Virus record (IMG/VR): IMGVR_UViG_3300046791_000095
Span: 1 to 64,000 of that record
Source: a virus
Direction: 5' to 3' (one strand)
Length of the DNA stretch: 64,000 bases
This document shows, in pieces, positions 4,760-60,863 of this stretch. Under the pieces are notes generated by a model. That model saw only the letters and a list, made by a program, of their open reading frames with translations, was not told the origin of the DNA and made no database searches. A program made the position numbers and the translations under genes. The stretch's first letter is position 1, and each line of letters opens with the position of its first letter.

Positions 4760-4797
4760 TTGCCCTCCGGGGCTGGACGTGAGACTATGGTCTGGGG
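4760..4797 (+). promoter_or_regulatory. Promoter-like element (TTGCCC-17-GACTAT)
   Basis: TTGCCC and GACTAT are 17 bp apart, followed by GGTCTGGGG and then the GGGGAGG ribosome site of the next gene. The same arrangement, with a GTGAGA spacer end and an RGTCTGGG discriminator region, occurs at 17701-17737. The shared layout supports a repeated phage promoter for middle genes. Confidence 0.5.
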
Positions 4798-4805
4798 AGG
4801 TATCC

Positions 4806-9666: not shown

Positions 9667-9803
9667 GCACTGATGTCTGGGACAAGATCGCAGAAAAAGC
9701 GTTCCGCGAAGCATGCGCCGTCAAGTGCTCCCTCGCTGAGTTCAAGCAAGGACTCAATAGGATTGCGGAGAGGTTCGCAGAAGAAGCAGAGTACGCAGGC
9801 TAG
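9663..9803 (+). CDS. Hypothetical small protein (46 aa)
   Basis: GTG start overlapping the previous stop (GTGA). Mostly one predicted amphipathic helix (DKIAEKAFREACAVK, FKQGLNRIAERFAEEAEYAG). No recognised family. Confidence 0.5.
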   Translation: MSTDVWDKIAEKAFREACAVKCSLAEFKQGLNRIAERFAEEAEYAG

Positions 9804-9804
9804 A

Positions 9805-9818
9805 TGTAGTTGCAACTA
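9805..9818. repeat. 14-bp perfect palindrome
   Basis: GTAGTTGCAACTAC is its own reverse complement and lies in the 66-bp gap between two genes. The same gap contains a possible 14-codon Cys-rich frame (MACGGCAECRGVKS) at 9829-9873 without a clear ribosome site. The palindrome could be an operator or chance. Confidence 0.4.
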
Positions 9819-9869
9819 CTGGATCATCATGGCATGCGGCGGATGCGCCGAGTGCCGAGGAGTAAAATC

Positions 9870-10097
9870 ATGAGCAACTCTCAGCAGTCGTACCAGAGCG
9901 GAGGCGTCGGGTTCACCGGCCTTCTCGCCGTTGCGTTCATCGTCCTGAAGCTCATCGGAGTCATTCACTGGTCGTGGTGGTGGGTCACTGCTCCCCTCTG
10001 GGGCGGTCTTGCGATCTTCATCGCGATCATGATCGTCCTGCTTCTCGTCTTGGGCATTGGCGAACTCATTGGTGGACATCAGCGTCCGCCTCGGTAA
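9870..10097 (+). CDS. Two-helix membrane protein (75 aa)
   Basis: Start MSNSQQS follows GGAGTAAAATC. Two hydrophobic segments (GFTGLLAVAFIVLKLIGVI; LAIFIAIMIVLLLVLGIG) flank the aromatic loop HWSWWWVTAPLW. This layout resembles the small phage membrane proteins annotated as transmembrane Fragile-X-F. Probably in the inner membrane, role unknown. It precedes rtcB by 13 nt. Confidence 0.65.
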   Translation: MSNSQQSYQSGGVGFTGLLAVAFIVLKLIGVIHWSWWWVTAPLWGGLAIFIAIMIVLLLVLGIGELIGGHQRPPR

Positions 10098-10110
10098 GAA
10101 AGGAAATTCT

Positions 10111-11400: not shown

Positions 11401-11402
11401 GG

Positions 11403-11594
11403 ATGAACTGCCCGGGCGACCGGCACAACTGGCGCAGAATCTTCTGGTGGACATCACGGCTCCTTTCGTGCGTCGCTTGCGGAAGAATTGCTGTGAAGAC
11501 GAGTCAGGTCACGTACAGTATGTTCAAGCACGAGGCTGTGCAGATCGGTGGCTACGCACCCGACCACACCTCTTCTTGGCACAGAGGAGCGTAA
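11403..11594 (+). CDS. Hypothetical CxxC protein (63 aa)
   Basis: Start two bases after rtcB, with GGGAGACTGAGG upstream. Contains CVACGRI and several Trp and His residues (HNWRRIFWW). It may bind one metal. No family recognised. It lies between the two RNA ligases. Confidence 0.5.
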   Translation: MNCPGDRHNWRRIFWWTSRLLSCVACGRIAVKTSQVTYSMFKHEAVQIGGYAPDHTSSWHRGA

Positions 11595-11595
11595 G

Positions 11596-12615
11596 ATGTC
11601 TTCTTGGACTTCATACCCGAAGGTGTGGTCGATGGGCCACCGGCTCGTGCAGGACCTCCTGCTAGATGACGTGATCGTCGAGGAGAAGGTAGATGGGAGT
11701 CAGTTCTCGTTTGGCCTCATCGATGGAGAACTCAAGATCAAGTCGAAGGGCGCGATCATCTACCCCGATGCTCCTCCTGCCATGTTTCGGGGCGCAGTGG
11801 AAACAGTCCTCTCGATCCAGGACAAGCTCATTCCTGGGTGGACGTATCGCGCTGAAGTACTCAGCCGGCCGAAGCACAACGTACTGGCCTACGACCGCGT
11901 CCCGCAGGGGAACCTCATCCTATTCGACATCGCGGTCGGTCTCGAAGACTACATGCTGCGTAGCATGAAAGTAGCAGAAGCTCAGGTGCTCGGTCTGGAG
12001 ATCGTGCCTGTCGTCTACACGGGCAAGGTCACCTCGGCTGAGCAGGTGATCGCGCTCCTTGACCGTACCAGCATCCTCGGCGGCCAGAAGATCGAAGGCG
12101 TCGTCGTCAAGAACTACAGCCGCTTTGGAATCGACGGCAAGCCGCTCATGGCGAAGTACGTCGCCGAGGCGTTCAAGGAGGTCCACAAGGGTGAGTGGCG
12201 GAAGGAGAACCCGACAAACAACGATGTCGTGACTCTCCTCGTCAACTCGCTCCGCACTCCTGCACGGTGGTCCAAGGCGGTGCAGCATCTCCGCGAAGCC
12301 GGGACGCTCACCGACTCTCCGAAGGACATCGGTCCTCTGCTGCATGAGATGCAGAAGGACGTGGAGGAGGAAGAGAAGCAGTTGATCATCGAGCGGCTCT
12401 ATAAGTGGGCGTGGCCCCATATCCGTCGAGGGATCACCCACGGGTTCCCGGAGTGGTACAAGGAGCAGCTTCTCGTGAAGCAGTTCGAGACGATGCGGGA
12501 TCAAGGGATTGTCGTGGATGATGCTGTCCGCTCGCTCGCTGACATTCCCCTTGGTGTCCGTGAGCCTTGGTGTACGTGCCGCGAAGGACACGAGTGTGAA
12601 GGACACCGCGCATGA
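11596..12615 (+). CDS. ATP-dependent RNA ligase (Rnl2-like)
   Basis: Nucleotidyltransferase-superfamily ligase. Motif I is EEKVDGSQF with the AMP-accepting Lys at about residue 31; motif III-like segments are in YRAEVLSRPK and LILFDIAVG; motif IV is EGVVVKNY (167-174) and motif V includes LMAKYV (about 185-190). The ~120-residue C-terminal region is helical and ends CTCREGHECEGH. It seals 3'-OH/5'-phosphate ends, complementary to RtcB. RBS GAGGAGCGTAAG. Substrate preference (nicked tRNA is likely) is inferred from family and context. Confidence 0.85.
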   Translation: MSSWTSYPKVWSMGHRLVQDLLLDDVIVEEKVDGSQFSFGLIDGELKIKSKGAIIYPDAPPAMFRGAVETVLSIQDKLIPGWTYRAEVLSRPKHNVLAYDRVPQGNLILFDIAVGLEDYMLRSMKVAEAQVLGLEIVPVVYTGKVTSAEQVIALLDRTSILGGQKIEGVVVKNYSRFGIDGKPLMAKYVAEAFKEVHKGEWRKENPTNNDVVTLLVNSLRTPARWSKAVQHLREAGTLTDSPKDIGPLLHEMQKDVEEEEKQLIIERLYKWAWPHIRRGITHGFPEWYKEQLLVKQFETMRDQGIVVDDAVRSLADIPLGVREPWCTCREGHECEGHRA

Positions 12616-12710
12616 CGAGGCTCTCTGATCGAATCCCCTATTCCTGGGGCTGGTGGTGGCGATACCTCCTCGACTGGTGGTATCGGTTTATCGGACGGAG
12701 GAAGCGATGA
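12612..12710 (+). CDS. Trp-rich cationic micropeptide (32 aa)
   Basis: The frame fills the space between two genes with ATGA overlaps at both ends, which is the best evidence that it is translated. It carries six Trp, three Tyr and eight Arg/Lys in 32 residues, with core SWGWWWRYLLDWWYRF and tail RRKR. The composition resembles membrane-active or host-inhibitory peptides. There is no homology evidence. Confidence 0.55.
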   Translation: MTRLSDRIPYSWGWWWRYLLDWWYRFIGRRKR

Positions 12711-12985
12711 GTCACCCGACAGTTCTCGGTCCGTGGTACGTGGTGCAACGACTCGTTGTTCTCCCGGACGGTGCTACTGCTGAAGCCTGGGAGAAGATGA
12801 AGACGGACACTATCGAGTACTACACCGCAATGGAAGATGGAGACCGGTCGTGGCAGAGCAACAAGAAGCTCGCTCTCCTCTTCATGTCTCTTCACAGTGC
12901 AGCGCGTGTTCGCGAGTCTGAGGTTGCAGAGATTCGCGTGCTCACGACGCGGGAGGAAGCCAATGAGTTCGGACGTGGAGAGTAG
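12707..12985 (+). CDS. Hypothetical protein (92 aa)
   Basis: The start MSHPTVL overlaps the micropeptide stop and has GGACGGAGG upstream. Predicted alpha/beta fold with an N-terminal beta strand pair (WYVVQRLVVLPDG) and helices (SAARVRESEVAEIRVL). Overlaps the next gene by 23 nt. No recognised domain. Confidence 0.6.
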   Translation: MSHPTVLGPWYVVQRLVVLPDGATAEAWEKMKTDTIEYYTAMEDGDRSWQSNKKLALLFMSLHSAARVRESEVAEIRVLTTREEANEFGRGE

Positions 12986-13277
12986 TTTCAACGAGTTGAA
13001 GACGGTCACTCGTGTTCGGGCTGAACTCGAACGCGCACAGGAGAAGCACCCCCGATGGCCGAGCGACCTTGGCCGGCAGCTTCTCGTAGTCTCTGAGGAG
13101 ATGGGTGAAGCGGTGCAGGCGGGCGTGTCACTCATGGAGTACGAAGACACGGGTGTCGATCTCGATGACTCCGCAGACCGTACTGTGTGGCACGAGTTGA
13201 ACGACAAGATCAACAACGAGATGATCCAGGTCGCCGCAATGGCGCTACGTTTCCTCATGAACAGGACGGTCAGATGA
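12963..13277 (+). CDS. MazG-like nucleotide pyrophosphohydrolase
   Basis: The all-alpha NTP pyrophosphohydrolase signature is visible: QEKHPRWPSDLGRQLLVVSE followed by EEMGEAVQA (ExxE metal-binding pair), then ELNDKINNEMIQVAAMALRF with the second acidic cluster. At 104 residues it is the single-domain form. These enzymes hydrolyse (d)NTPs to monophosphates; phage versions may tune nucleotide pools or ppGpp. It lies in an ATGA-coupled run of small genes. Confidence 0.75.
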   Translation: MSSDVESSFNELKTVTRVRAELERAQEKHPRWPSDLGRQLLVVSEEMGEAVQAGVSLMEYEDTGVDLDDSADRTVWHELNDKINNEMIQVAAMALRFLMNRTVR

Positions 13278-26269: not shown

Positions 26270-26512
26270 ATGTCCTACGTCTGGATCAAACTCGTGACGG
26301 CGTGTGGCTGTTCAAAGGAGTGGTTGAGTCCAGAGAACTGGACCAGATCAAAGTACGTTGTTTCACTCCCGACACCTGTCAAAATAAGTGGAGGAGAACC
26401 TGATCTAGCGAACACCTTTCCTCGGACTCGTACTTTCAAATTGTACAACGAGTACTGGGATAATGTTCGGAAGATTCGTGTTGTCGTCTATGAAGAGTCT
26501 TTAGGGGAGTAG
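26270..26512 (+). CDS. Hypothetical protein overlapping tRNA-Pro (80 aa)
   Basis: A small protein with CGCSKEWLSP near the N-terminus and a beta-rich C-terminus (KIRVVVYEESLGE). Its last 10 bases form the acceptor strand of the following tRNA, so processing of the tRNA would cut the end of this coding sequence. No family recognised. Confidence 0.55.
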   Translation: MSYVWIKLVTACGCSKEWLSPENWTRSKYVVSLPTPVKISGGEPDLANTFPRTRTFKLYNEYWDNVRKIRVVVYEESLGE

Positions 26513-26578
26513 CGCAGAGGCCAGCGTGCCCGTTTTGGAAACGGGCGGTCGTGGGTTCGAATCCCACCTCCCCTGCCA
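26503..26578 (+). tRNA. tRNA-Pro (UGG)
   Basis: Acceptor AGGGGAG pairs with CTCCCCT, D arm GCGC/GCGT, anticodon arm CCCGT-TTTGGAA-ACGGG with anticodon TGG, and T arm GTGGG-TTCGAAT-CCCAC. The 3' CCA is encoded (26576-26578). 76 nt, all canonical. The 5' end overlaps the upstream coding sequence. Confidence 0.95.
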
Positions 26579-26581
26579 AAG

Positions 26582-26659
26582 TGCGAGGGATACCATAGGT
26601 GAAAAGGCCGAGCCGGTCAGGGGAAAGTTGTGGTAGCGAGTACCCCCACCTCCCTCGCA
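26582..26659 (+). ncRNA. tRNA-sized structured RNA unit A
   Basis: TGCGAGGG pairs with CCCTCGCA at the two ends (8 bp), continued by AGGTG/CACCT after a 7-nt 5' bulge. The inside holds a GGTA/TACC hairpin. 78 nt, starting four bases after the tRNA-Pro CCA. No anticodon arm or TTCRA loop is found and CCA is absent, so it is not a normal tRNA. Confidence 0.5.
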
Positions 26660-26664
26660 TTATC

Positions 26665-26738
26665 AGTGTGTGCTTTCCAGAAACCACCACGCAGAAGCGT
26701 GAGCGAACTGGATTAGGCTCCAGAGGGAGCAGCACACT
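26665..26738 (+). ncRNA. tRNA-sized structured RNA unit B
   Basis: A 10-bp end helix (AGTGTG-TGCT with AGCA-G-CACACT, one bulged G) encloses two perfect hairpins, CACGC-AGAA-GCGTG and CTGGA-TTAGGC-TCCAG. 74 nt. It has three-way-junction geometry without tRNA signatures. It is separated from its neighbours by 5 and 7 nt. Confidence 0.55.
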
Positions 26739-26745
26739 ACAGCGA

Positions 26746-26825
26746 CCCAAGAGTAAACGTGACGGGCTAAAGCAATCGCGAGGTCGCGGGCGTAACCCGC
26801 GCTAAGCCCGCAGACCTATCTTGGG
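26746..26825 (+). ncRNA. tRNA-sized structured RNA unit C
   Basis: A 7-bp end helix CCCAAGA/TCTTGGG, a second helix CGGGCT/AGCCCG and an inner 6-bp hairpin CGCGGG/CCCGCG with loop CGTAA. 80 nt, six bases before tRNA-Leu. No T-loop or anticodon loop. Very stable by inspection. Confidence 0.55.
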
Positions 26826-26831
26826 CATCTT

Positions 26832-26914
26832 AGCTCCCTGATGGAATGCAGACATGCCAGCCTTAGAAGCTGGTGCCTTCGGGCGTGAGGGTTCGAATCC
26901 CTCGGGAGCTACCA
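26832..26914 (+). tRNA. tRNA-Leu (UAG)
   Basis: Acceptor AGCTCCC/GGGAGCT, anticodon arm CCAGC-CTTAGAA-GCTGG with anticodon TAG, a long variable arm around GCCTTCGGGC as expected for a class II leucine tRNA, T arm GAGGG-TTCGAAT-CCCTC, discriminator A and encoded CCA. 83 nt. Confidence 0.93.
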
Positions 26915-41800: not shown

Positions 41801-42296
41801 CACTCACGACCGCGCCCGGAGACACGTTCGAAAACGAGTTACTGGTCGTCACGACAGTGCTCGCAATGGTGCAAGAGGCCACCGTGAATTGCGTATCGAG
41901 AGTCGTACCAGTAACCACACCGAACCACCGACCCTGACCACCGATCTCAGTCGGAGAAAGGCCAGAGACGGCAGTGAAGTCTGCGCCATAGAGATGGAAG
42001 CCCGGGTAGGTCCGATCAGGACCACTGAACCACGTTGGAGAACCATCGGTGCGGCGAGTGAGTTCGACGAACTGATCGACGTATGCACCGTCGAAAGAGA
42101 GATGTCCCACGCCCCGGATGTCGGTGCCAAGAGCCGTGGTAGTCAAGGCAGTACGGCCAGGAGCCCGCCAGATGGACGGGTCCTTCTCGCGATACACACA
42201 GTCGTCGGCTCGCTGGAGTTCTCCAGAGTCGAGCATCGAACCAACGCGTGCGGTCACGATACCACCGTTGAGTAGTTCGGTCATGGGCTTTGGCAT
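38898..42296 (-). CDS. Tail nozzle-like protein (1132 aa)
   Basis: The N-terminus LLNGGIVTARVGSMLDSGEL, followed by the RAPGR pattern, resembles podoviral nozzle/tail tubular B-type and P22 gp10-type proteins, which start with a GGI...-type segment and an RPP-like motif. A long beta-rich body follows, with blade-like segments such as GIMLAYASTVGMFLTNG and RTRKFYPITL. Two SGTGITAGTRV-type modules (about residues 170-210 and 1000-1060) are likely insertions. It would close or extend the short tail. Function is by analogy. Confidence 0.65.
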   Translation of the reverse strand: MPKPMTELLNGGIVTARVGSMLDSGELQRADDCVYREKDPSIWRAPGRTALTTTALGTDIRGVGHLSFDGAYVDQFVELTRRTDGSPTWFSGPDRTYPGFHLYGADFTAVSGLSPTEIGGQGRWFGVVTGTTLDTQFTVASCTIASTVVTTSNSFSNVSPGAVVSGTGITAGTRVLSVDSATQITLDTAGSAGTVTLTFTQYPFLITAIGARLIGTGIGTNVRITAVSNQDGTTGHYRTATLSVAPASGNGNYNFIITFGSVYDWNNTGGEILDFVQYGARRYYMWDGIGNLQCVEWKARATASDATLGSVLGIRPVGLRPVETAPTITVQTAQATGWNAVKGAGKYWLLITEIFSPEANIATALKDPALRSQIVESSYLAADNSTTGDNGSQSGIGLPIGATIVTPASDNILITFPAVTNDGRDGYIATHWGVYIYGPSTDLPSLAQLRRCATVPITTFAAGATFTLTENTLTQIKYPTAKRTAAGRPEFGAAERLLGVFDNSDAASKVGGSNKNMPDNAANGLTTYGFSVVGAYLAKLIFGIELQVRGYADPSGDTTPTARYWVRLMTTGATKSTDTYYGEFGGQGNHTNYHGGPMDTMGVAWVLADTPNLEVEVGIANRGHKDALFLDGVAIKIYYTTTNVDFNGPAYRVVTYQDQVGTTISDPARLLPPQPTTGDFFQGSFVLNNRIQENQIRFSLPGDPEAWPKPYELTFNTRKKDKVTFIKTLNGMLLVGMENSIKRVNYLPKESDTKLDTGLAHEDVATDHGIPGPFCGVKFDMPGKGIMLAYASTVGMFLTNGIWTMPLNLDLDWENTVKISALGTAVLRVYPKQKWLALFYCPAGATHNKNTRVMYFCYQADKLKDNSGMPAVGPSVASARSACEAYLNGTPYIFTGHEADGKVYVEDSGLTIPSGYQARLNDDSANGDGKTASAVDVKIIPLIRTRKFYPITLDRDGFGEKVYLHFAPFGSNSVTALSTTVINTTTVTSSAAFASVLPGMRVLGTGIDPGTIVVSKASSSSITISRAANASGSATLTFDTGTLGVTLRGSGLGEAVKGLRTDYISTLVGDLASYNNTKMRRGFEIQIEKVPLTFDSNGDTLTWADLGVNMRIHTLTYVLSEAGFPDSNRNES

Positions 42297-42306
42297 GGAT
42301 TACCTC

Positions 42307-43248
42307 TTATCGGTAAGGATCAAACTGTCCGTTGCCCCAGAGTGGGCGACCGTAGTCACCGACTTCCCACTGCGACTTCATGCAGTTCTCGGCGTCGTTG
42401 TCGTCCGTCGGCTCTTCGTCAGTCTCGGCTGCTCCCTCGGAGGCTTCTTTGACCGAGGCTGCGTAACCTGCTGGATCATCCTGGGCTCGCTTGGTTTCGA
42501 GAAGGATGTTTCGGCAGTAGTCGAGGAACTGGTAGACGAAGTCATCGATCATGTCGATGTTCGTTCCGTTCGTGATGAACTTCCGATAGTACCGGAAGAG
42601 CATCGTGTCGTTCACATCAGGGATGCGATCAAACTTGATTCGAGTCGTTCCCTTGTTCTGCGTGAGGTCTGAGAACGTATTGTACGTGGTGTACTCGGAT
42701 GGAGTTCCACGCACGGTCTGGTCGATGATGGTACGATCCCACCACCGCTGATCTCGCCACACGAGTGGGCGCTTGTTCGTTAGCAACAGTGCCGAGAATG
42801 CAGCACTGAAGTCGTTAGGCACACCGTAGTCATTGCTTCCCGCGATGATCGGAATGTTGGCGCTGAAGATCATCACTGACGCCGACGAGGTGAGGGCGTT
42901 CTTATCCACCGTGATCGAAGATACGACACCGTCCGTTCCGCGCGTTACGAAGAGAACTGTTGCCGTTCCGGTGTAGGCAGAGGAGGTCAGAGTCTGTCCA
43001 ACATTCACGAAGTCGAGATCACCTGCCGTGACGGGAGTGATCGTAGCAAATCCCGACAGAGGAGTAGCCGTGATCGTGAAGGTGTTCGACGTGTCCTTCA
43101 GGAGGAATCGCCAGAACCGCTTGTTCTGCCAGTCCTGGTATCCTCGGAGGATAGCCTCGTTCGCCATGTCGAGAGATTCCTGGCTCTCGGCACCACCACC
43201 GATGATACGGGCGACGTAGATTCGTGCGTTGACAACAGTGATGGCCAT
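42307..43248 (-). CDS. Gatekeeper / head-tail adaptor-like protein (313 aa)
   Basis: The N-terminal helices (ESLDMANEAILRGYQDWQNK, FWRFLLKDTSNTF) fit the T7 gp11/P22 gp4-type adaptor pattern. A beta module (TITPVTAGDLDFVNVGQTL) interrupts the fold. The C-terminal helix region (IDMIDDFVYQFLDYCRNILL) is followed by an acidic tail (TDEEPTDDNDAEN). It connects portal and nozzle by position and pattern. Confidence 0.65.
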   Translation of the reverse strand: MAITVVNARIYVARIIGGGAESQESLDMANEAILRGYQDWQNKRFWRFLLKDTSNTFTITATPLSGFATITPVTAGDLDFVNVGQTLTSSAYTGTATVLFVTRGTDGVVSSITVDKNALTSSASVMIFSANIPIIAGSNDYGVPNDFSAAFSALLLTNKRPLVWRDQRWWDRTIIDQTVRGTPSEYTTYNTFSDLTQNKGTTRIKFDRIPDVNDTMLFRYYRKFITNGTNIDMIDDFVYQFLDYCRNILLETKRAQDDPAGYAASVKEASEGAAETDEEPTDDNDAENCMKSQWEVGDYGRPLWGNGQFDPYR

Positions 43249-43251
43249 GTG

Positions 43252-44538
43252 TTACCTCAGAGCAACTCCTACCTTCTTGATCTGTTCGAGGGTAGGTTGC
43301 TGAATGATGGGGCGTCCGATTTCTCGGCGTTGACGTGCCCGTGTCTCTTCATAGAATTCGAAGAGGCCAGGGATCGTCGCCTTTGGTGTGCGATTTTCCA
43401 AGACCCATCGTCTCGCCCCAGAAGCAACATGAGCGCGAAGAGCAGGGTCTTCGATGAGCCGAGAGAGCTTCTGAACGAACTCTTCGGGAGTGTCGTAGAG
43501 GAGTCCAGTTTCGCCATCGATGATCTCCTTGTATGGACCGAAGTTCGACGCAAGGGTGGCCTCGGGCTGTTCCCAGATGGAGCCTTCGTACCACTTGATG
43601 GCAGACTTGCCGGCGTTGAACATATTCTTCTTCAGCGGGCAGAGGTTGATGTCGATGTTCAGAAGACCACGCTTGAGCTTGTACGCGTCGTACTCGTTCC
43701 AAGCATGATGCTCAACCATGTGATCAGGGATCGTCTCGTGAATCCACTTGAACCACTCACCGTAGATCACGAACTTCACGTTCGGATACTTCTGGCAAAT
43801 GACCTTGAGGGCATCGCGGAGAGGGTACCAGTCCACCCAGTGGCTCATACCACCCTGCCATAGGATGCGAATGGAGTCGTCTTCACGTACTGCACGAATT
43901 TTCTCGTAGTGCTCAGGGATGATCGTGTTCGGGAAGACGTAGACGTTCGGCTGGCCGATGACTTCCTTGAAGTACCGGGCGAGATTCGGGGTGGTCACGG
44001 TCGCACCGTGGCACGTCCGGATGATCTCGTGGCGAACCTTCATCTGGTGAAGGTTGCGTGCGATGTCGAACTTGAGCCCATCGAGGTGGGTCTCCTGATC
44101 GACGATCTGCCAGATTTTGTTCCCCTCGGCGTCGAAGATTTCCATGCCATCTCCTGGGGTCAGGAGGTGGGCATCGGGATAACTGCGGATACCCATGCTT
44201 ACGTAGCTCGTGTTGAATGGGTGAACGAAGTCATTGTTGTCGTCGATGTCGTAGATCAGAGCCGGAGGGTAGATGTCGTTGCCATCACGGATCGCGGGCT
44301 TGATGTTTTTCAGGACCTGCATCTTGTGCAGGATCGATTCACCAGCCACTGCGTAGAAGTGCGAGATGTCAGAGTACATCTGTGCGATGTGGGAGTCGGG
44401 CGTACCACCCTTGTCCTCGAAGACCTTGGCTAGGCCGAACGACATCAACTGCGTCATTGGTGCTTCAATCCGGTAGTACGAGCAGGCGCTCCGCTTTCCG
44501 AAATTGAGGGTCCAGACGTGGAAGGGATTGGCAGACAC
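43252..44538 (-). CDS. GT-B glycosyltransferase (GT4-like)
   Basis: 428 residues. C-terminal Rossmann part has SIRILWQGGMSHWVDWYPL, NVKFVIYGEW, the EPATLASNFGPYKEI-like block around PEATLASNFGPYKEIIDGET and GLLYDTPEEF, as in GT4 enzymes with the E-x7-E phosphate site. GTG start after AAAGGAGTCACCC. Placement inside the virion operon suggests it glycosylates a structural protein, or cell-wall material, late in infection. Donor and acceptor unknown. Confidence 0.8.
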   Translation of the reverse strand: MSANPFHVWTLNFGKRSACSYYRIEAPMTQLMSFGLAKVFEDKGGTPDSHIAQMYSDISHFYAVAGESILHKMQVLKNIKPAIRDGNDIYPPALIYDIDDNNDFVHPFNTSYVSMGIRSYPDAHLLTPGDGMEIFDAEGNKIWQIVDQETHLDGLKFDIARNLHQMKVRHEIIRTCHGATVTTPNLARYFKEVIGQPNVYVFPNTIIPEHYEKIRAVREDDSIRILWQGGMSHWVDWYPLRDALKVICQKYPNVKFVIYGEWFKWIHETIPDHMVEHHAWNEYDAYKLKRGLLNIDINLCPLKKNMFNAGKSAIKWYEGSIWEQPEATLASNFGPYKEIIDGETGLLYDTPEEFVQKLSRLIEDPALRAHVASGARRWVLENRTPKATIPGLFEFYEETRARQRREIGRPIIQQPTLEQIKKVGVALR

Positions 44539-44557
44539 GGGTGACTCCTTTCTACAG

Positions 44558-45016
44558 TTAGTTCAGCTTGATCTTCCCGCGCATGTCGCAGGAAATGCCT
44601 TCGGATTCGAAGTAGGAGAGCAGGGCGAAGAAGAAGTCCTTGTTCAAGCGAAGACAGCCCTTCTCATGATCCCACTTGTACAGCAGACCATCATCGCGAA
44701 GTTCTTCGCGCTCGATCCCAGTAACGGGGTCCTTCACGGTCTCATACTTCGCAAACATTTCGAGAACGAGGGTCCAGATTTCGGTGTCGTAGTTCGCGAC
44801 GTGCTGAAACTTGCGCGTTGGATCGAAACCATTCGCACGGACGTATGCACCGAGGGCGCTCATCGAGTCCGCCATATTGCGGAACGCGACCCGATTCTCC
44901 GCCGTGCGACGGAGCTTGGGAACAGCCGACTGAGCCAACTTGACGGTGTCGCCAAGAAGGCTCAGTTCAGACTGGTGCTGCGCTCTGATGCGAGTGATTT
45001 TGAGATCACCGCTCAT
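44558..45016 (-). CDS. Hypothetical protein (152 aa)
   Basis: Start with AAGGAGG upstream. Largely helical: VKLAQSAVPKLRRTAENRVA, AFRNMADSMSALGAYVRAN, then LNKDFFFALLSYFESEGIS. No recognised domain. It sits between the glycosyltransferase and the small tagged proteins. Confidence 0.6.
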   Translation of the reverse strand: MSGDLKITRIRAQHQSELSLLGDTVKLAQSAVPKLRRTAENRVAFRNMADSMSALGAYVRANGFDPTRKFQHVANYDTEIWTLVLEMFAKYETVKDPVTGIEREELRDDGLLYKWDHEKGCLRLNKDFFFALLSYFESEGISCDMRGKIKLN

Positions 45017-46729: not shown

Positions 46730-47752
46730 CTAGGTAACGGAACTCTTGTTGTTGACGGACCGGATGATGCCGTTCGCCTTCTCGGCGAGAACCTCCAGCG
46801 TCACCTCGCCCACGACCAGACCAGCAACCGAGTCACCTCGCTTGCCGACAAGCTCGTGATGCACAGGGCGCAGCCACGCCAGACGATTGATCGCGCGAGA
46901 CAGGAAGAACATCTGACCACCAGTCGCAGTCGCCGAAGCGGTCGCGGTCGTGGTGTTGGTGCTCTCCGGAACCCACCGGTCGAGGACGATCTGGATCAGA
47001 CCGAAGTCCGAGTCGTAGAAATCGATGGCGCCGATCAGCTTCTTGTCCACCGCCGCGATGTTCTTGGCGTAGACGTTGCCGGCCGCAGCACCAGGGATCG
47101 AGAACGCACTGACCTGACGCTTCACCTTCGGGCTGACATACACCTGCTCCGGATTGCCGCCCGCAGCGTAGATGGTGTTCAGCATGTCGTTGAAGTCGCC
47201 AACCGTCACGATACCGTCGTGAGTCGCATCACCAACCGTACCACCGTTGGTTCCCGCGAGCGAGGTATTGGACGTGACGAACGACTGAAGGCCGCGCATC
47301 ACACGGGCAGTACCGGAAGCACCGGTCGCCGTGGTCAGAGCACCGAAGACGATGGTCTCCAGCTTGATCGCGAGTTCCTTGGTCGCCTTCTGAACTTCGT
47401 AGGCGTACTGATCCGCGAAACCAGCGGTGTCCACTGCGCGCTGCGACTCCGACAGACCGATGTCCTTGCGGAGAATCATGGTCACGTTGAAGACGCGGCT
47501 TGGAGCAGTGGTCGTGTCCAGCGACCAGTCGGCACCTTCCACAGCACCCGCAGTCGTCTGCGTGCCAAGGGTGTCGATGAGCCACTGGTGGTAGATGTGA
47601 CGGCAACCGACCTTCGGAGCCTGCGACACGAACGGCGTGTCATATGGAGAGATGTTGGTAATCTGCTCCAGCAGGTCCTCACGGGCGACGCCACTCTTCA
47701 GATCGGAGCCATCGAAGGCATACGAGCCGAAGTTGAAAGTGGTACCAGCCAT
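46730..47752 (-). CDS. Major capsid protein (DUF5309/SU10-like)
   Basis: 340 residues. The N-terminal DLLEQITNISPYDTPFVSQA followed by KVGCRHIYHQWLIDTL matches the DUF5309 (SU10-type) HK97-fold capsid family, as does the central FNDMLNTIYAAGG/EQVYVSPKVKRQVSAF region and the C-terminal E-loop-less beta arm. It comes after a scaffold gene and before a capsid-associated protein. Hairpins flank the gene on both sides of its mRNA. Confidence 0.85.
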   Translation of the reverse strand: MAGTTFNFGSYAFDGSDLKSGVAREDLLEQITNISPYDTPFVSQAPKVGCRHIYHQWLIDTLGTQTTAGAVEGADWSLDTTTAPSRVFNVTMILRKDIGLSESQRAVDTAGFADQYAYEVQKATKELAIKLETIVFGALTTATGASGTARVMRGLQSFVTSNTSLAGTNGGTVGDATHDGIVTVGDFNDMLNTIYAAGGNPEQVYVSPKVKRQVSAFSIPGAAAGNVYAKNIAAVDKKLIGAIDFYDSDFGLIQIVLDRWVPESTNTTTATASATATGGQMFFLSRAINRLAWLRPVHHELVGKRGDSVAGLVVGEVTLEVLAEKANGIIRSVNNKSSVT

Positions 47753-49633: not shown

Positions 49634-51607
49634 TTACGCGGCTACGCCGGCTGGAGGAAGATTCTGGTTGAGGCTCGGAGGAGTGAGCAACGACGCCGGA
49701 GCGCCCATGCCCGCTGAACCAGCCATCCCCGACATGACCGACGGACCACCATTCGAAATCTGTCCCGAAGTCGGAATGCCCGAAACGCCACGCCCCATCA
49801 TCATCTGCTGGAGTTGTGGGTTCTGGAGCATCTGCTGGAGCATCGGGTTGACAGCGAAGATTTCGTTGATGTTCGGGACTTCGAACGTGCGGAAGATGCC
49901 ACGGAAGAAGTTCACTGCATTGATCTGTCCCATCAGAGACTGACCGAGAGGAGTACCAAGGGCCTGAAGCAACGAGAGCAGATTCTGCTGCTGCATCTGC
50001 TTCGAGAGACCCATCGTCGCACCAAGGGCTCGTGCGGTGTACGACGGGAATAGGTCGTACGCGCTGAGCGTCTCTCGCGACGCGGGGATCGGCATGTTCG
50101 TGACTGGATCGATCTGAGAACCATCGCCGAGGATGAGCACTTCGACGGGCGGTTCGAGGAACTGCTTGGAGAGGGCAGCGAACATATTCGCCATCGGCTC
50201 CAGCATCGTCTCCTCGTAGATACGGGACTCCAGCATCAGGCGCGTGCCTGCTGCTTCACGGCGACCGATGAACTCTCGGGCCGTCTGTCGTGAGTCTCCG
50301 CCAATACCCTGGACTGCATCGTCCACGATACCGGTACCCATCTGTAGGAACTCTCGAATCTGCGAAATCTTCTGATCCGCAACCGAGAGACCCTGCATGT
50401 ACGGCTGCATCGGCATGATCGCGTTGCTCGGATTGCCGTTGAGACCAACGAAGCGTCCCGGGCGCGAGTAGAGATTGCGCGTCACGAGTCCGGCTCCACG
50501 GTCGTAGAACCACATCGGATCGATCATCAGGTCAGCCGCATCGAGCGACTGGTTCAGGTAGCGGTTGCCGACGATCTGGAGCTTCTCGACGATCTCGGCC
50601 TTGCCCGGGGCGTAGAAGTAGTGCAGGTCCGGCGTAGGCGAGTAGGCGAGGAACGGAATCTGTCCGTGGTTGTACGGGTTCGGGCGATTCCTCATCATGT
50701 AGCGACGGTTTGCGACAGTGACCACGCGCGAGAGCACGCCATCCGGCGAAAGCTCGCTCGGGACCTTGCCCCAGAACTCCAGAATCTCGATAGGGCGCGA
50801 GTACTTGTCCATGAACCGGGCAGTCTCGTCATCCATCCCTGTGCGAACCTGGAACCGCTGGATCGACGTAACGAGGGCACCCTGACCACCGCCGAGCGCG
50901 CCATCGCGCTCCAGCCGGCTGAGGGCTGCCTTGTCGAACGTGCCGATGGACGCGAGGTAGCGACAGTCATCGAGATCGAGGAAGTACCGGCGAACGACCC
51001 ACTTCATGTCGCGTAGACGCGCGACCGTAGGCTGCGGGAAGAAGTCGAGCAAGTCCACCATGATGGACTCGGGGCCGTCGAACATGACGACCTTACCCTT
51101 GCGGATGTGGCGCACGACCTTGCCCGATAGGGGCATCCGGTCGATCTGCTCCATGATCCGTTCCTGCTCGTCGCGCTTCCATCCCACCTGCATCACGCAG
51201 ACGCCGTAGAGTGAGCCGGCGACGATGGCATCCACCTGCTTGAGGAAGCCGTTGTCGTCCTTGAACTGAGCCGCGTTGAGCGCCTCCTGCTTGCGCGCGA
51301 TAGCTGCATCCTCGGGTCCGTAGCCCATGAAGTTGACGGGCGGGTAGGACGAAAGTGAGGAAGCTGCCTTGCGGGCTGCATCAGCCCAGATCGCCGAGAA
51401 GATCAGCGGGATGTGTACGTTGTTCTTGTGCGGGTGGAAACGGCCGGACCAGGTTCCGCGCCAGAGATCGTAGAGGCGAGGGAACTTCGACCGGATGCCG
51501 TTGAACTGAGACTCGGAATGCTGTACGCACTCCACCACCATGTTGCACATCTGCTGCTCGTAGGCATAGGCCCCGGCTGCACGTTCGATGATCATCGACG
51601 AGATCAC
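49634..51607 (-). CDS. Portal protein (657 aa)
   Basis: Large podovirus-type portal. An N-terminal helical region with WSGRFHPHKNNVHIPLIFSA is followed by the wing/stem core, VVRRYFLDLDDCRYLASIG, FWGKVPSELSPDGVLSRVVT, NRYLNQSLDAADLMIDPMWF, and a C-terminal Met/Gln-rich tail (MLQQMLQNPQLQQMMMGRG) likely forming the barrel or a disordered end. It forms the dodecameric vertex through which DNA is packaged and ejected. Confidence 0.85.
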   Translation of the reverse strand: MISSMIIERAAGAYAYEQQMCNMVVECVQHSESQFNGIRSKFPRLYDLWRGTWSGRFHPHKNNVHIPLIFSAIWADAARKAASSLSSYPPVNFMGYGPEDAAIARKQEALNAAQFKDDNGFLKQVDAIVAGSLYGVCVMQVGWKRDEQERIMEQIDRMPLSGKVVRHIRKGKVVMFDGPESIMVDLLDFFPQPTVARLRDMKWVVRRYFLDLDDCRYLASIGTFDKAALSRLERDGALGGGQGALVTSIQRFQVRTGMDDETARFMDKYSRPIEILEFWGKVPSELSPDGVLSRVVTVANRRYMMRNRPNPYNHGQIPFLAYSPTPDLHYFYAPGKAEIVEKLQIVGNRYLNQSLDAADLMIDPMWFYDRGAGLVTRNLYSRPGRFVGLNGNPSNAIMPMQPYMQGLSVADQKISQIREFLQMGTGIVDDAVQGIGGDSRQTAREFIGRREAAGTRLMLESRIYEETMLEPMANMFAALSKQFLEPPVEVLILGDGSQIDPVTNMPIPASRETLSAYDLFPSYTARALGATMGLSKQMQQQNLLSLLQALGTPLGQSLMGQINAVNFFRGIFRTFEVPNINEIFAVNPMLQQMLQNPQLQQMMMGRGVSGIPTSGQISNGGPSVMSGMAGSAGMGAPASLLTPPSLNQNLPPAGVAA

Positions 51608-54258: not shown

Positions 54259-56211
54259 TCAGACAGGGTCTCGTGGAAGGATGTAGTCGTTATCCAGTCC
54301 GTCGCCACGGAGTCCGTCGCCGAAGAAACCCGCAGAGGCTAGCTCGTCACGGTCGGCCATCATCACGAGGAGTTCCTCGTTGGTGGGCGGCTTGCCGATG
54401 CTCTTGAGGTCTTGGTCCCACGGACGGATAGGCACAGTGCCTTCCTGACTCGGGATGCCTGGATTGGTGTCGGGTGGTCGCCAGAGTTGTGAGGTGAAGC
54501 CGTCGGCACCAGCGTCTGCAAGGTCGTCGAACATCGTCGTGTCCACTTTGACGATCTGATTGATCATCTTGCGGGCAGGGATGGGAAGGACGAAGTGCGG
54601 ACACTGACGCTGCTTGTACGCGTTGCGCGTCGGATCAAACTCTGGAGGAGGACAGTTGCAGTTGTTCTTGTGAAGGAGGAGACGAACGTAACCTTCGGAC
54701 CAGTGGCCGGCTGCGGTACGGATGCGGGCCTTCTTGTCCTTGGTGCGGTTCAGTTGGATGAACTGCTCGTCGCCGAACTGGAAGCCGGCAGTACGGAGGA
54801 TGCCGAGGATTCGGTTCTTGTAGGTGCCAGACTTGCCGCCCGGCTCGACCTCGTCGGTGATGGCACGGATGTAGATACCTCGACGACGGAGGTTTAGGCA
54901 GACCTTGATCAGTTCTTTGTTGAAGTCCTCTTCGCGCCATTCGTTCGACGCGCAGAGAAGGTCCGTGTCGAGGTAGAGAACGCCGTTGTTGCGGGCGTCT
55001 TTGAGCCAGACCACGATGGCGGAGTCGTCACCGTGTCCGATGTTCTCCTTGTTCTTGAAGGCCGTGTCGATGTGAATGGTGGCCCATTCCACTTGTACAT
55101 CCCACATGAAGTCGTGGTACGAGAGATAGAGCCACGGGATTTGATTTTCGACGAGCGGGGCATGCTCGCTTGCGCCCGGGTTGTTCTGCTGCTGGCAGGC
55201 GAAGTCTTCTGCATCGATCCGCTTGCGCTCCTCGATCATCTTCCGCGTCCAGAGCTTCGGATGCGTTGGTTCGCCAGTCAGTTCGTCTTCGGTCTGGTAG
55301 TAGTAGACGTGCCAGAGACCTTCACCGAACGGGACCTTGTCGAACATATTCATGTGGGGGCAGTCCATGCCCGACCATGAAGCGACACCTTCCTCGCGGA
55401 AGTGGCGACCAGCGATGTCGTCGTCGAGGTAACGGGTGGCCGTGAGGACACGGAGTCCGTTGACGTGGAGCGAGTTCGCCGAGGCGTTGAAGGCTTCGTG
55501 CTGACCACGGAGATAGGCGGTGCGGTCAGCCTTCAGCTTGTTCTTCTCCAGCGGGTCATCCCACCACGACTGGCGAGGATGGTAGCCGGTGGCTCCGATG
55601 CCGGCAGAGGAGGCATCGAAGGAGGGTTCGGAGATGTTGCGGGCACGACGGTAGCCGTGCTTGATGTAGTTTCGCGTACGCTCGTGCGCACCCGAGACCC
55701 AGTCGCCGTAGAGCCAGACGAACCACGAATCAGGATCGTGCTCTTTTCCCCCAGACATTACGGACAACTGTGATTTGAGGATGTCGATGGAAAGGTCGTC
55801 AGTGGCCGATTGGATCAGCGTCGTCATGTCTGGATCATCAAGATGAGTCCAGAGTGATGCTGCCTTCGTCGAGGAGACGGTCTTACCGTAGCCACGAGGG
55901 AGGATCGAGGCGATGCAGTACTGTCCCGGCATGCCGGAGAGCGCATGCTTCTTCCACGCAAGTAGATGCATCTGAAGCCACTGCGTGTAGGGAACGTGGA
56001 TCGGAGCGTAGAGCCACTGAGGTTCTGCTGGATGCGACTTGAGGAAGTACTCTGCTCCCCATGCCTTGTTCAGGAAGTACCAGAGGGAGTAAGGGTGCGT
56101 CCCCTTCTTTACTCCGTCTTCTCGGTGCCAGGAGTTGGGGGCGCAGATGGAGCGCCAAAGGAGCCTTTCCGCTTCAAGGTTCCAACCAATCGTCTGAGTA
56201 GCTTCCGCCAT
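54259..56211 (-). CDS. terL: Terminase large subunit (650 aa)
   Basis: ATPase domain with ASILPRGYGKTVSSTKA (Walker A, about residues 102-118) and a Walker B-like segment in ATGYHPRQSWWDDPLEKN. The nuclease domain has WATIHIDTAFKNKENIGHGD with its catalytic Asp and downstream acidic residues (IRAITDEVEPGGKSG). It resembles T7 gp19-type enzymes: podoviral, coupled to a small terminase. Its first 103 bases overlap the upstream gene in another frame, with an internal CTGGAG ribosome site. Confidence 0.85.
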   Translation of the reverse strand: MAEATQTIGWNLEAERLLWRSICAPNSWHREDGVKKGTHPYSLWYFLNKAWGAEYFLKSHPAEPQWLYAPIHVPYTQWLQMHLLAWKKHALSGMPGQYCIASILPRGYGKTVSSTKAASLWTHLDDPDMTTLIQSATDDLSIDILKSQLSVMSGGKEHDPDSWFVWLYGDWVSGAHERTRNYIKHGYRRARNISEPSFDASSAGIGATGYHPRQSWWDDPLEKNKLKADRTAYLRGQHEAFNASANSLHVNGLRVLTATRYLDDDIAGRHFREEGVASWSGMDCPHMNMFDKVPFGEGLWHVYYYQTEDELTGEPTHPKLWTRKMIEERKRIDAEDFACQQQNNPGASEHAPLVENQIPWLYLSYHDFMWDVQVEWATIHIDTAFKNKENIGHGDDSAIVVWLKDARNNGVLYLDTDLLCASNEWREEDFNKELIKVCLNLRRRGIYIRAITDEVEPGGKSGTYKNRILGILRTAGFQFGDEQFIQLNRTKDKKARIRTAAGHWSEGYVRLLLHKNNCNCPPPEFDPTRNAYKQRQCPHFVLPIPARKMINQIVKVDTTMFDDLADAGADGFTSQLWRPPDTNPGIPSQEGTVPIRPWDQDLKSIGKPPTNEELLVMMADRDELASAGFFGDGLRGDGLDNDYILPRDPV

Positions 56212-58196: not shown

Positions 58197-58585
58197 GTAC
58201 TTTCCTTTCGCTGGAGCTTCGTGTTGATCGCCTCTTCCCAAAGGTGGAGGCGCTTGGGCGACTTGCGAATGTACTCCATCATGTGCGCGTCGAGAGCGAG
58301 GATGCAAACCTCTTCGAGTGAGCCATCGACGATGCCGATGAAGGTGGAGATGAAAACGACGTGGAGGAGTTCGTGGATGACGGTGGAGATGTGATCCATG
58401 ACGCCCGTTTGCTGATTCGCGTCTACCTTGATGACGATGTTGGTCGGCGGGGTGATCTCATCCCAGAGGCTGAGGCCCTGCTGTGCCACCATCGGGCCGA
58501 AGGTCAGGTGGACTTCCGGGTGATTGAGGAGTTCCAGGAGGACTGAGTGGAGCTTCTGGCGCGTCAGTGGATACTTTCCCTTCAT
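58193..58585 (-). CDS. HExxH metalloprotease-like protein (130 aa)
   Basis: ISTVIHELLHVVFISTF carries the zincin HExxH motif (about residues 68-72), followed by GSLEEVCILALDAHMMEYI with possible third-ligand Glu, as in gluzincin/SprT-like folds. It is a compact single domain. It could process a capsid or host protein late in infection; substrate unknown. Its start overlaps the upstream gene by 128 nt. Confidence 0.65.
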   Translation of the reverse strand: MKGKYPLTRQKLHSVLLELLNHPEVHLTFGPMVAQQGLSLWDEITPPTNIVIKVDANQQTGVMDHISTVIHELLHVVFISTFIGIVDGSLEEVCILALDAHMMEYIRKSPKRLHLWEEAINTKLQRKEST

Positions 58586-59210
58586 CGGAGGGCTCCACGG
58601 TGAATGCTTCGTTCACAGCAGCGAGGGTGATCGTGGGGCCGCATGCAACCATCATTTCCTTGAGACGCGAAGTCGCCTCCGCACGGGTCATCGGAACCGA
58701 TGGGCCGAGGTCCTTCGCCTTCGCCTTCTCCTTGAGCTTCTGCCAGAGCGTCGATGCGCTCATGCGCGTGTCGGGATGGAGGCGTGGGTCGAAGATGAAG
58801 CGGAGACACTGCTTGATGACGCGCTTCTCGATCTCCTCTTCCGTGAGATCGCCCGCGTCGTACATATCGATCATGTCCGACATGGCCTTCATGGCTTCAT
58901 GGTCGAGCATCTTCGATGGCTTGCTCGGATTATCGAGGGCCGGCTCTGCTGATTCGCTAGAGGGCTCAGATACCTCCGCAGCGCGTGGAGTCGTTGGACG
59001 CGACGGGCGCGTCTTCGGAGCCTTTGCTACGGTCTGAGGCTTGCGCGAGGGCGGGAGCCGGCTCTCGGAAATCAGAGCGCGACGTGCGATGGCGATTGTG
59101 GCAGTCGAGACTTTTGCCCCGATTGCCTGCTGCTCCTTCGTTTCGTCCGGATGGGCCAGGATGTACTCTGTGGCCTGCTTGAACTTCAGTTCACGAAGCG
59201 TTGTCATCAT
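58458..59210 (-). CDS. HTH protein, first late gene (about 250 aa)
   Basis: N-terminal helix-turn-helix-like segment TKEQQAIGAKVSTATIAIAR (about residues 20-40), then a Pro/Ser-rich linker, a helical middle (MSDMIDMYDAGDLTEEEIEK, IKQCLRFIFDPRLHPDTRMS) and a Pro-rich tail. Its DNA-binding head and helical body fit a small terminase or a late regulator. The start is either of two adjacent ATGs (59210 or 59207); no strong Shine-Dalgarno is visible. Its 3' end overlaps the HExxH gene. Confidence 0.6.
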   Translation of the reverse strand: MMTTLRELKFKQATEYILAHPDETKEQQAIGAKVSTATIAIARRALISESRLPPSRKPQTVAKAPKTRPSRPTTPRAAEVSEPSSESAEPALDNPSKPSKMLDHEAMKAMSDMIDMYDAGDLTEEEIEKRVIKQCLRFIFDPRLHPDTRMSASTLWQKLKEKAKAKDLGPSVPMTRAEATSRLKEMMVACGPTITLAAVNEAFTVEPSDEGKVSTDAPEAPLSPPGTPQSPGSPPDLRPDGGTAGPQPLG

Positions 59211-59222
59211 ATACGTCCGTAT
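59211..59222. repeat. Short dyad at late-operon start
   Basis: ATACG and CGTAT are inverted around TC, directly abutting the start of the first late gene. Its place fits an operator, but it is short and could be chance. Confidence 0.35.
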
Positions 59223-59306
59223 TTTTGGGTGGCCTGGGGGCTGCGCACATTTCGCGCCATCGTTGGGGGGTCTCCGGGACCCTCCCATGCGAGCAGGCGC
59301 CCACGT

Positions 59307-59340
59307 TGGCACGAGTCTTGCTACAGCAAGTAGCGTGCCA
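59307..59340. promoter_or_regulatory. 34-bp dyad 1 (TGGCACG-N4-TTGCT)
   Basis: TGGCACG-N4-TTGCT is followed after 2 bp by its inverted partner AGCAA-N4-CGTGCCA. Each half fits the sigma-54 promoter pattern (GG-N10-GC) in its own direction. The minus-strand half points at the late operon about 95 bp away. It may alternatively be an operator for a dimeric protein or an origin iteron. Confidence 0.65.
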
Positions 59341-59375
59341 GCATGCATGCACCCCGCGCAGGCTCGCGCGCTCGT

Positions 59376-59409
59376 TGGCATGGTTCTTGCCATAGCACAT
59401 ATCGTGCCA
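59376..59409. promoter_or_regulatory. 34-bp dyad 2
   Basis: TGGCATG-N4-TTGCC, 2 bp, AGCAC-N4-CGTGCCA: the same 34-bp architecture as dyad 1, centre 69 bp away. Both GG-N10-GC signatures are kept in both directions. Confidence 0.65.
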
Positions 59410-59412
59410 GCG

Positions 59413-59446
59413 GGCGACCCAGACCAGCGTAGCATAGATCGTGCCG
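59413..59446. promoter_or_regulatory. Degenerate third dyad
   Basis: Only the right half is well kept (AGCAT-N4-CGTGCCG), 37 bp from dyad 2 in the same register. The left half is degenerate. The minus-strand reading is CGGCACG-N4-ATGCT. Confidence 0.45.
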
Positions 59447-59581
59447 GGATGCAAGCTGGAACAGTCAAGCGCGCGCAAAGCTTTTCCCGCCCCGAATTGC
59501 GTGTTGTCACACAGAACTGAGGGCGCGGCGAGTCGAATGCGGAACAGGGCGAGCCCACCCACAAGCAAGCCGAGTGCCAGT

Positions 59582-59600
59582 CTTCTAAGTTGTAATGTAA
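59582..59600 (+). repeat. 19-bp intergenic repeat, copy 2
   Basis: CTTCTAA[G]TTGTAATGTAA, one mismatch from the element at 4659-4677. It overlaps the left arm of the AT-rich inverted repeat described next. Confidence 0.55.
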
Positions 59601-59618
59601 TAGAACAAATAATTACAA
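59590..59618. repeat. AT-rich inverted repeat, origin candidate
   Basis: TTGTAAT and ATTACAA are perfect 7-bp arms around a 15-bp AT-rich centre, an AT island in an otherwise GC-rich non-coding region with dyad repeats. It could serve as an easily melted site at a replication origin. Function inferred. Confidence 0.45.
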
Positions 59619-59637
59619 GCATAAGGTGGCACAGTTC

Positions 59638-59671
59638 CACTGTAGCCCGCCCCATCCGGGGCTACACAGTG
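59638..59671. repeat. 11-bp imperfect hairpin
   Basis: CACTGTAGCCC pairs with GGGCTA-CA-CAGTG, a 2-nt bulge, around a 10-nt loop. It lies between the AT-rich inverted repeat and dyad half 4. May be a terminator or a binding site. Confidence 0.45.
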
Positions 59672-59720
59672 AAAGCCTGTGCAACACCTAAGGCGCATGC
59701 AATGACTATGCCAAGAACTC

Positions 59721-59743
59721 TGGCACGCCGCTTGCTAGTCCGC
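59721..59743 (+). promoter_or_regulatory. Isolated half-site TGGCACG-N4-TTGCT
   Basis: Exact match to the half-site of the dyads, on the plus strand, without the second arm. It has the -24/-12 sigma-54 spacing and points toward the rightward operon. Confidence 0.5.
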
Positions 59744-60120
59744 GAAAACGCTCCAACCCTCTGTCCCCCAACGCGTTACACCATTCGTTCGAGAAGGCCC
59801 CTAGCGTGCCCGCTGGCCGCGCCAATATGGCCGCGTGCCTCCCCATAGCCGCGCCCACCTGTGCAGTAGCGTAACCCCAACTCGCACATCACGTTGCGCC
59901 GTTTCCCCGACCCATCGAGGGAACAAAAACTCGCCGCGCTCCGTCGATCCTAGGAGCCCGCCCTCGCTGCTCGCCTGCGCACCCGGGCGCTCCCTCGTTC
60001 AGTTTCGCAACAGTGCCCCGAGAGGGCGTGTCCAAATTGACACACTCGCCCCGATTCTGACCTGTGCCACGCGCCCCTATCTAATGAGTAGAAGTCAAAA
60101 TCACGTCGTGCAGAAAAGTG

Positions 60121-60150
60121 TTGCATCACTCGCACTCTGCATGCTACACT
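60121..60150 (+). promoter_or_regulatory. Promoter (TTGCAT-18-TACACT)
   Basis: TTGCAT and TACACT are 18 bp apart, both close to the sigma-70 consensus. It reads rightward into the hairpin-dense gene-free region and the early operon at 60.86 kb. This is the best promoter in the divergent region. Confidence 0.55.
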
Positions 60151-60159
60151 GGTCTGAGC

Positions 60160-60815
60160 AGCACGAGGTCGCAAGAGGTTACACTGTGGCATCACCCTTG
60201 CACTCTACTTCGTCAGTCACACGATCCGAAGCGCCAAGAGCCCGAAGGACCCGCAAGGTCCCGTGGGACGATAGAGCGGACGGAACGACAGGAGCGGCCC
60301 GGAACGGGCCATAAGAGTAGCCCAAGCCTAACGGAACAGGTGCGCGTCCTGCCTCTTCACCAGTGGCGGCGAACCCATCGACCAGCGGCGAAAGCGCCTC
60401 CACCCAGTGCAGCGCGAAGCGGTAGTCGGAACGCACGCCCCATCGGCACTCGCACTCGCCACACCTCGATGCAGCCCCGCAACGGGCCGCCCGGGTGGAA
60501 GCGACCGCGAAGGCCACGACGACATGGGAGAGCGAGAAGGCGCAGAGCCTCCACGAGAGGCGGCACACAAGCGGCAGGGCAAACGCACCTAGAGCGGAAT
60601 GCGCGCGACCAACAGATCGGCCGAAGCTGGCCGGATGCGCGCACACTGCGATGATGCCGGGATACCGGCGAGCGGTGAAACGCGACGACCTTAGGAACGA
60701 GCCCGAGCCGAATGAGTCGTGAGATGGTGTAGGTCTCGGCGACGGCTGCATCAAGAACGAGGAGCACTGGGTTCGAAGCCCGTGCTCGGATGCTAGCCCG
60801 AGAGACCTCACCGCC
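60160..60815 (+). ncRNA. Candidate ~0.65-kb structured non-coding RNA
   Basis: Downstream of a promoter, this stretch has no credible ORF but many perfect hairpins: GGACC/GGTCC (60247-60261), GGCCCG/CGGGCC (60296-60310), GCCTC/GAGGC (60547-60561), a nested TGCGCGC...GCGCGCA (60600-60643) around CGGCC/GGCCG, and GCCGG/CCGGC with a GATA loop (60656-60670 region). It ends in a long hairpin of about 85 nt (60725-60812) with helices GGTG-AGGTCTC, GGCT-GCATC and GAGCAC-GGG and a TTCGAAG loop. No known RNA family is assigned; the boundaries are approximate. Confidence 0.45.
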
Positions 60816-60863
60816 TCTCACCTGACGAGCCCCAGAAGGGCGAAACTCAACCTAGGAGGCGTT

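Follow-up and report, generated by a model that had tools for sequence, protein, structure and literature searches.

The control region between two divergent gene blocks of an uncultured phage contains face-to-face pairs of a half-site, TGGCAYG-N4-TTGC, that follows the consensus of sigma-54 (RpoN) promoters. The same dyads recur in many viruses and are almost absent from cellular genomes. With somewhat more confidence than doubt, they can be read from their sequence as bidirectional, mutually exclusive promoters for host sigma-54, or as a switch, serving both gene blocks.

Sites and gene context in the window phage

The window, i.e., the whole stretch of 64,000 nucleotides analysed here, covers nearly all of a 64,672-bp IMG/VR virus record. 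Half-sites deviating from the pattern by no more than one mismatch were considered good matches, and all eight of them in the record fall within 59307-60201, less than 900 bp (Table 1). The 1.65-kb gap contains four exact half-sites, compared with a mean of 0.004 and a maximum of 1 in 20,000 first-order Markov copies. When two mismatches are allowed, the record contains 34 matches versus 31 by chance, and thus near-exact half-sites alone carry the signal.

Table 1. Half-sites and surrounding genes in the window
Feature	Coordinates	Strand	Remarks
Divergent non-coding control region with all sites	59211-60863		Bounded on the left by the ATG of ORF 58458-59210
Dyad 1	59307-59340		Halves 59307-59321 (+), TGGCACGAGTCTTGC, and 59326-59340 (-), TGGCACGCTACTTGC, face to face; both exact; span 34 bp
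Dyad 2	59376-59409		Halves 59376-59390 (+), exact, and 59395-59409 (-), one mismatch; span 34 bp
Degenerate half-site	59432-59446	-	Third dyad of the sequence-only reading; two mismatches; left partner not recognisable
Lone half-site	59565-59579	-	TGGCACTCGGCTTGC; one mismatch; oriented toward late genes
Lone half-site	59699-59713	-	TGGCATAGTCATTGC; one mismatch; back to back with the 59721 site
Lone half-site	59721-59735	+	TGGCACGCCGCTTGC; exact; oriented toward rightward genes
Lone half-site	60187-60201	+	TGGCATCACCCTTGC; one mismatch; oriented toward rightward genes
First leftward ORF, 250 aa	58458-59210	-	Start MMTTLRELKFKQATEY; not called by the gene finder used here
Terminase large subunit (TerL), leftward (late) block	54259-56211	-	phrog_38, E 6e-30
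SU10-type portal, late block	49634-51607		PF23899, E 2e-26
SU10-type major capsid protein, late block	46730-47752	-	PF17236, E 3e-67
First rightward gene, 112 aa	60864-61202	+	No assigned function

An earlier, sequence-only reading had described two 34-bp dyads built on a shared plan, a degenerate third dyad and a lone half-site at 59721, all intact halves having the GG-N10-GC signature of sigma-54 promoters. Both dyads are present as described, with a single mismatch in the right half of dyad 2; only the minus half of the third is recognisable, the lone half-site is an exact match, and the GG-N10-GC spacing was confirmed in the window half-sites. The three one-mismatch lone sites of Table 1 had been overlooked.

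The dyads occupy a divergent gap between a leftward block, which spans 59210 to about 27,300 and includes the terminase, portal and SU10-type capsid genes, and a rightward block that begins at 60864; the DNA polymerase A gene lies on the rightward strand. Their placement just upstream of the late operon, as previously proposed, is correct, with the leftward ORF starting at 59210 and followed by TerL, the portal and the SU10-type major capsid protein. ORF 58458-59210 has no match in Pfam or PHROG. Among 50,697 phage records, TerL of the window phage has no tblastn relative and its portal only one distant relative, and kinship to isolates was therefore rejected. Judged by its sequence, the phage belongs to a new phage group, with a terminase that lacks relatives although capsid and portal are of SU10 type.

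Two window relatives, G014 and L054, have rightward lone sites similar to that at 60187-60201, and in both the dyad is almost the sole alignable non-coding stretch in a gap that has otherwise diverged far. A third relative, L131, retains a degenerate facing pair at the 34-bp span. A strong inverted repeat (GTGGCACAG ... CTGTGCAAC, inner CACTGTAGCCC/GGGCTACACAGTG) lies at 59615-59700 of the window, between the dyads and the lone half-site, and folds better than shuffled sequences on both strands (z -2.9 and -3.4).

Base preferences and spacing

The half-sites of the window contain the core of sigma-54 (-24/-12) promoters, GG-N10-GC with TGGCAC and TTGC elements, and they also follow the extended base preferences outside this core, for which the textbook sigma-54 consensus served as a second standard of comparison. 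In 90 dyads and 169 lone halves, the positions left free by the pattern show T/C before TGG, a T-rich spacer, T/C before TTGC and A/T after it, which is the RpoN consensus, and the preferences are the same in both sets. The motif derived from E. coli holoenzyme is TGGCACnnTTnTTGC (PMC8743547). The 4-bp spacer is strict: 883 distinct sites have it, and each of the other lengths (1-3 and 5-8 bp) occurs at 0-23 sites. Among near-exact sites, positions 7 and 12 vary, while GG and TG are almost invariant. The sigma-54 resemblance noted in the sequence-only reading is thus much strengthened by the unforced flanking bases and the strict spacing, and by the 79 sequence clusters and the isolates on RpoN-containing hosts described below.

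The distance between half-sites is less constrained. Facing halves mostly span 33-38 bp and never less, with a centre of 3-8 bp, and the gaps that separate back-to-back halves are concentrated at 5-10 bp and less frequent at 16-18, 20-21 and 26-28 bp. Lone or back-to-back halves are common, and arrays reach up to four alternating pairs. A dimeric operator would have a fixed half-site distance, which these sites lack; because the facing distance varies, two independently read sites fit better than one rigid dimer operator. It is accordingly unlikely that the dyads are operators, an alternative raised in the sequence-only reading, here for some other host or phage DNA-binding protein with sigma-54-like specificity. 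Operator-like features are the palindromic layout and the tandem arrays, and the near absence of the dyad from cellular genomes also speaks for this reading, but the variable centre, the frequent lone or back-to-back halves, the lack of a regulator common to these phages and the RpoN preferences at the free positions all speak against it.

A palindrome could also act after transcription as an RNA hairpin, i.e., as a terminator, processing signal or regulatory stem. Although the window dyads exceed shuffled sequences in folding (z -5.1 and -5.9), this is expected of any palindrome; what is conserved is base identity together with the exact 4-bp spacer, and lone halves keep the preferences without having a partner. 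The spacer bases vary freely, and no T-run terminator was found at the window dyads. The RNA hairpin was rejected on the basis of lone-half preferences, general foldability and spacer variation, and is very improbable.

Distribution in viruses and cells

A scan of 2.9 million viral contigs detected the face-to-face dyad in at least 120 IMG/VR stretches, representing 79 sequence clusters. Facing pairs with a free centre (0-30 bp) and back-to-back halves were likewise each found in at least 120 viral stretches, and a reversed-letter control of the free-centre pattern gave no match in the viral contigs. The 34-bp dyad was found in only three stretches of 84,980 bacterial and archaeal genomes (257 Gb), and it is therefore virus-specific; exact pairs with a 3-8-bp centre were absent from 274 genomes of one bacterial class. 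Single half-sites occur at approximately 2-3 per Mb in three bacterial genomes, compared with about 100 exact half-sites in the approximately 1 Mb of 20 dyad-bearing phage genomes. Isolates with a TerL like that of other dyad-bearing contigs (Zobellviridae and HMO-2011 types) contain no site cluster; an uncultured Manatee Spring phage contains just one exact site.

Genomic position and neighbouring elements

Twenty phage genomes were read besides that of the window, one of which (G027) is a near-identical relative of it. In these genomes, most clusters lie in the gap from which two opposing gene blocks diverge. In a larger set, divergent gaps hold 32 of the 41 classifiable clusters versus 58/458 of all gaps (p 2e-21), as determined with a simple home-made gene finder by which individual gaps may be wrong. 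Where a terminase or portal gene is recognisable, it is transcribed away from the cluster in 95 of 100 sequences (p 6e-23); both p values are upper-end figures because related phages are not fully independent. The half-sites point equally to the early and late sides (163 vs 154), and lone half-sites are oriented outward in 103 and inward in 67 cases. The proposal of late promoters consequently needs to be modified: the sites are not late only, but symmetric, placed in a divergent region and directed equally toward early and late genes, and elsewhere sigma-70 promoters often adjoin them.

Of 165 cluster regions, 45 contain strong sigma-70 promoters (50 matches versus 3 in the reversed control), mostly in flanking positions and directed outward. 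The elements enriched near the clusters are the sigma-70 -35 sequence CTTGACA, DnaA boxes and a TAAGTCRTTGA motif; no clear shared activator motif was found there. TAAGTCRTTG recurs beside clusters in L112, L119, L359, L362 and others, sometimes right after a sigma-70 -10 element.

DnaA-box-like TTATCCACA repeats lie close to the dyad clusters in L359, L237, L248, L283 and L124, and some cluster gaps may therefore also be replication origins. Phage origins are often located in divergent gaps. That the sites themselves are origin or packaging iterons, bound by a replication initiator or terminase, is nevertheless quite improbable. The nearby TTATCCACA repeats and terminase genes would suit such a function, but iterons are normally direct repeats with regular spacing beside an initiator gene, whereas these units alternate in orientation and are variably spaced. 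There is no shared initiator, pairs occupy several gaps in some genomes (G029 and G008), and the retained sigma-54-specific bases would be left without explanation; the iteron alternative of the sequence-only reading thus fits less well.

Individual genomes show further arrangements. In G017 (L148-L150), roughly twelve half-sites with one mismatch, almost all of them on the plus strand, are distributed throughout rightward genes at 780-13197 and 42104-44706; these are possibly single sigma-54-like promoters inside a phage gene block. In G029 (L195, L196), a gene-poor region at about 20-31 kb contains many back-to-back pairs, repeatedly offset by 24 bp. Only 43% of the 27.7-kb phage contig G012 (L170, L171) is coding by the standard code, and this phage may use a reassigned stop codon.

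Dyads in cultured phages

Facing pairs are present in the Pseudomonas phages Kat, PAK_P1, PAK_P4 and phiPMW and in Vibrio phage D419; the Pseudomonas and Vibrio hosts of dyad-bearing isolates have rpoN. Most of the Kat region is common to at least 119 Pseudomonas phage records. Six phages with hosts among P. aeruginosa, P. putida, P. protegens and P. syringae were aligned (PAK_P1, Kat, phiPMW, NoPa, Bitten and ventosus); both halves are conserved among them, and the N4 spacers are variable. Immediately next to the dyad, this alignment (A1) also shows a conserved stretch rich in GC (GTGTTTGTCTCCGGTGCTCGG...CTGCGTTGCCCGC), which is recognisable as well in PAK_P3, where the half-sites are approximately 150 bp apart and point outward.

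The deposited annotation of PAK_P4 contains an RNA-seq-based ncRNA, 55650-55850 in rounded coordinates, that begins at the dyad. By these rounded coordinates, its start precedes the sigma-70 promoter of the annotation by about 40 bp, and this promoter could therefore not make the first part of the ncRNA. The dyad ends about 11 bp before a -35 element.

The host factor and a proposed mechanism

The DNA-binding and core-binding domains of sigma-54 (PF04552, PF04963) and the AAA+ domain of its activators (PF00158) were detected in none of 35 records, some of them fragments, at E<=0.001, with positive controls. Weak PF04552 matches (E<10) in G008 and G014 were partial, stop-spanning or in the wrong frame and were rejected as phage-encoded RpoN, and there was no credible phage sigma-54 activator or GAFTGA motif. 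A search for T7-like RNA polymerase (PF00940) found none, and the control genomes gave no match either. The phages share no common regulator; the most widespread family, found in 12 of 20 genomes, is a DNA polymerase or exonuclease. Conservation of the cis-element without a conserved phage factor indicates a host factor, and by its sequence specificity, the RpoN holoenzyme is the host factor that matches the sites. As the phages lack a detectable sigma-54, activator or shared regulator, the sites are probably read by the host RpoN holoenzyme.

In the proposed mechanism, RpoN RNA polymerase would load on each face-to-face dyad in either of two orientations, with one holoenzyme per dyad at a time, because its footprint exceeds the dyad. 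Each dyad would thereby provide an exclusive leftward or rightward start where the divergent gene blocks begin, and several dyads would increase polymerase loading. The phage would supply the promoters, and the host would supply sigma-54 and its ATP-driven activator. With starts placed 12 nt beyond the final C in TTGC, dyad 1 is predicted to initiate at about 59333 (+) and about 59314 (-), the latter giving a leftward leader of about 104 nt. RpoN binding, initiation at the sites, use of both directions and the choice of activator are in this sense predictions.

The promoter reading has its own difficulties. Sigma-54 requires an activator, yet no common activator site was found; the face-to-face layout, rather than ordinary divergent sites, is left without explanation; and the sites are missing from several isolates whose terminases are related. 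A close rival assumes that sigma-54 polymerase forms a stable but silent closed complex on the dyads, which would serve as a roadblock or competitor shutting neighbouring sigma-70 (early) promoters, or as a sigma-54 decoy array. The sigma-70 promoters in over a quarter of the cluster regions, the short distance from the PAK_P4 dyad to the -35 element, arrays that exceed the needs of a promoter and the lack of a phage activator in the 35 records are all consistent with blocking. Still, this is rather unlikely, considering the excess of outward-pointing over inward-pointing lone half-sites, the location where operons begin, which suits promoters, and a simple scan of the window gap that found no sigma-70 promoter-like sequence.

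The bidirectional promoter reading can be taken further in a tentative and more speculative form, in which many virulent phages of mixed phylogenetic origin have adopted a palindromic, virus-specific sigma-54 promoter as the two-way switch between their gene blocks, run by host RpoN and by infection-triggered host activators. A host damage alarm, such as RtcR sensing damaged tRNA, would then fire the phage programme.

Relation to known systems and implications

Textbook phage transcription depends on host sigma-70, phage sigma factors or phage polymerases. Pseudomonas phage YuA has reportedly been claimed to contain sigma-54 promoters, and no report of phage sigma-54 dyads was found in the open-access literature. 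The present data suggest that many phages may control genes via host sigma-54, a link likewise not found in that literature. The sites share half-site sequence, spacer and free-base preferences with the -24/-12 promoters of bacterial sigma-54, but differ from them in forming face-to-face pairs in phage control regions, a layout that cellular genomes almost lack.

Palindromic bidirectional sigma-70 promoters of bacteria are also symmetric and place the polymerase in two exclusive orientations, but unlike the dyads, they are not described as sigma-54-dependent or phage-specific in the passages of the source concerned with them (e.g., PMC12825309). Henry et al. (2015) described sigma-70 repeats of PAK_P1-like phages (PMC4309531). 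These early promoters are found in the same phages and the same intergenic regions and adjoin the dyad, but their sequence, TTGACA-N17-TAGAAT, is unlike it, and the passages of that paper covered by the search do not mention a sigma-54-like dyad. In the PAK_P1-like phage K5, palindromes are bound by the host protein SrpA, which is needed for expression of the phage's genes (PMC5945682). The SrpA palindrome was rejected as the dyad, since its sequence, TATC-N0..9-GATA, is different (PMC5945682).

Use of host sigma-54 through a shared phage cis-element would add a route of transcription. It could explain the timing or division of transcription in phages without factors of their own, and would tie phage expression to host stress sensing (nitrogen, envelope or RNA damage). 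Since the dyad is present in cultured phages of P. aeruginosa and P. putida, the idea can already be put to the test.

An attractive candidate activator is RtcR, which responds to damaged tRNA and might fire the phage sites. In other bacteria, rtcAB is controlled by RtcR, a sigma-54 activator that senses damaged tRNA, according to the relevant passages of two studies (PMC7790460, PMC9650030). During PAK_P3 infection, one host operon, the RNA-repair operon rtcAB, is upregulated nearly 80-fold (PMC4933390), and the dyads may bear on this strong induction. Genes for RtcB, an RNA ligase and two tRNAs (10057-12615 and 26503-26914) give the window phage an RNA-repair theme of its own, which may be relevant given that sigma-54 controls the host Rtc system.
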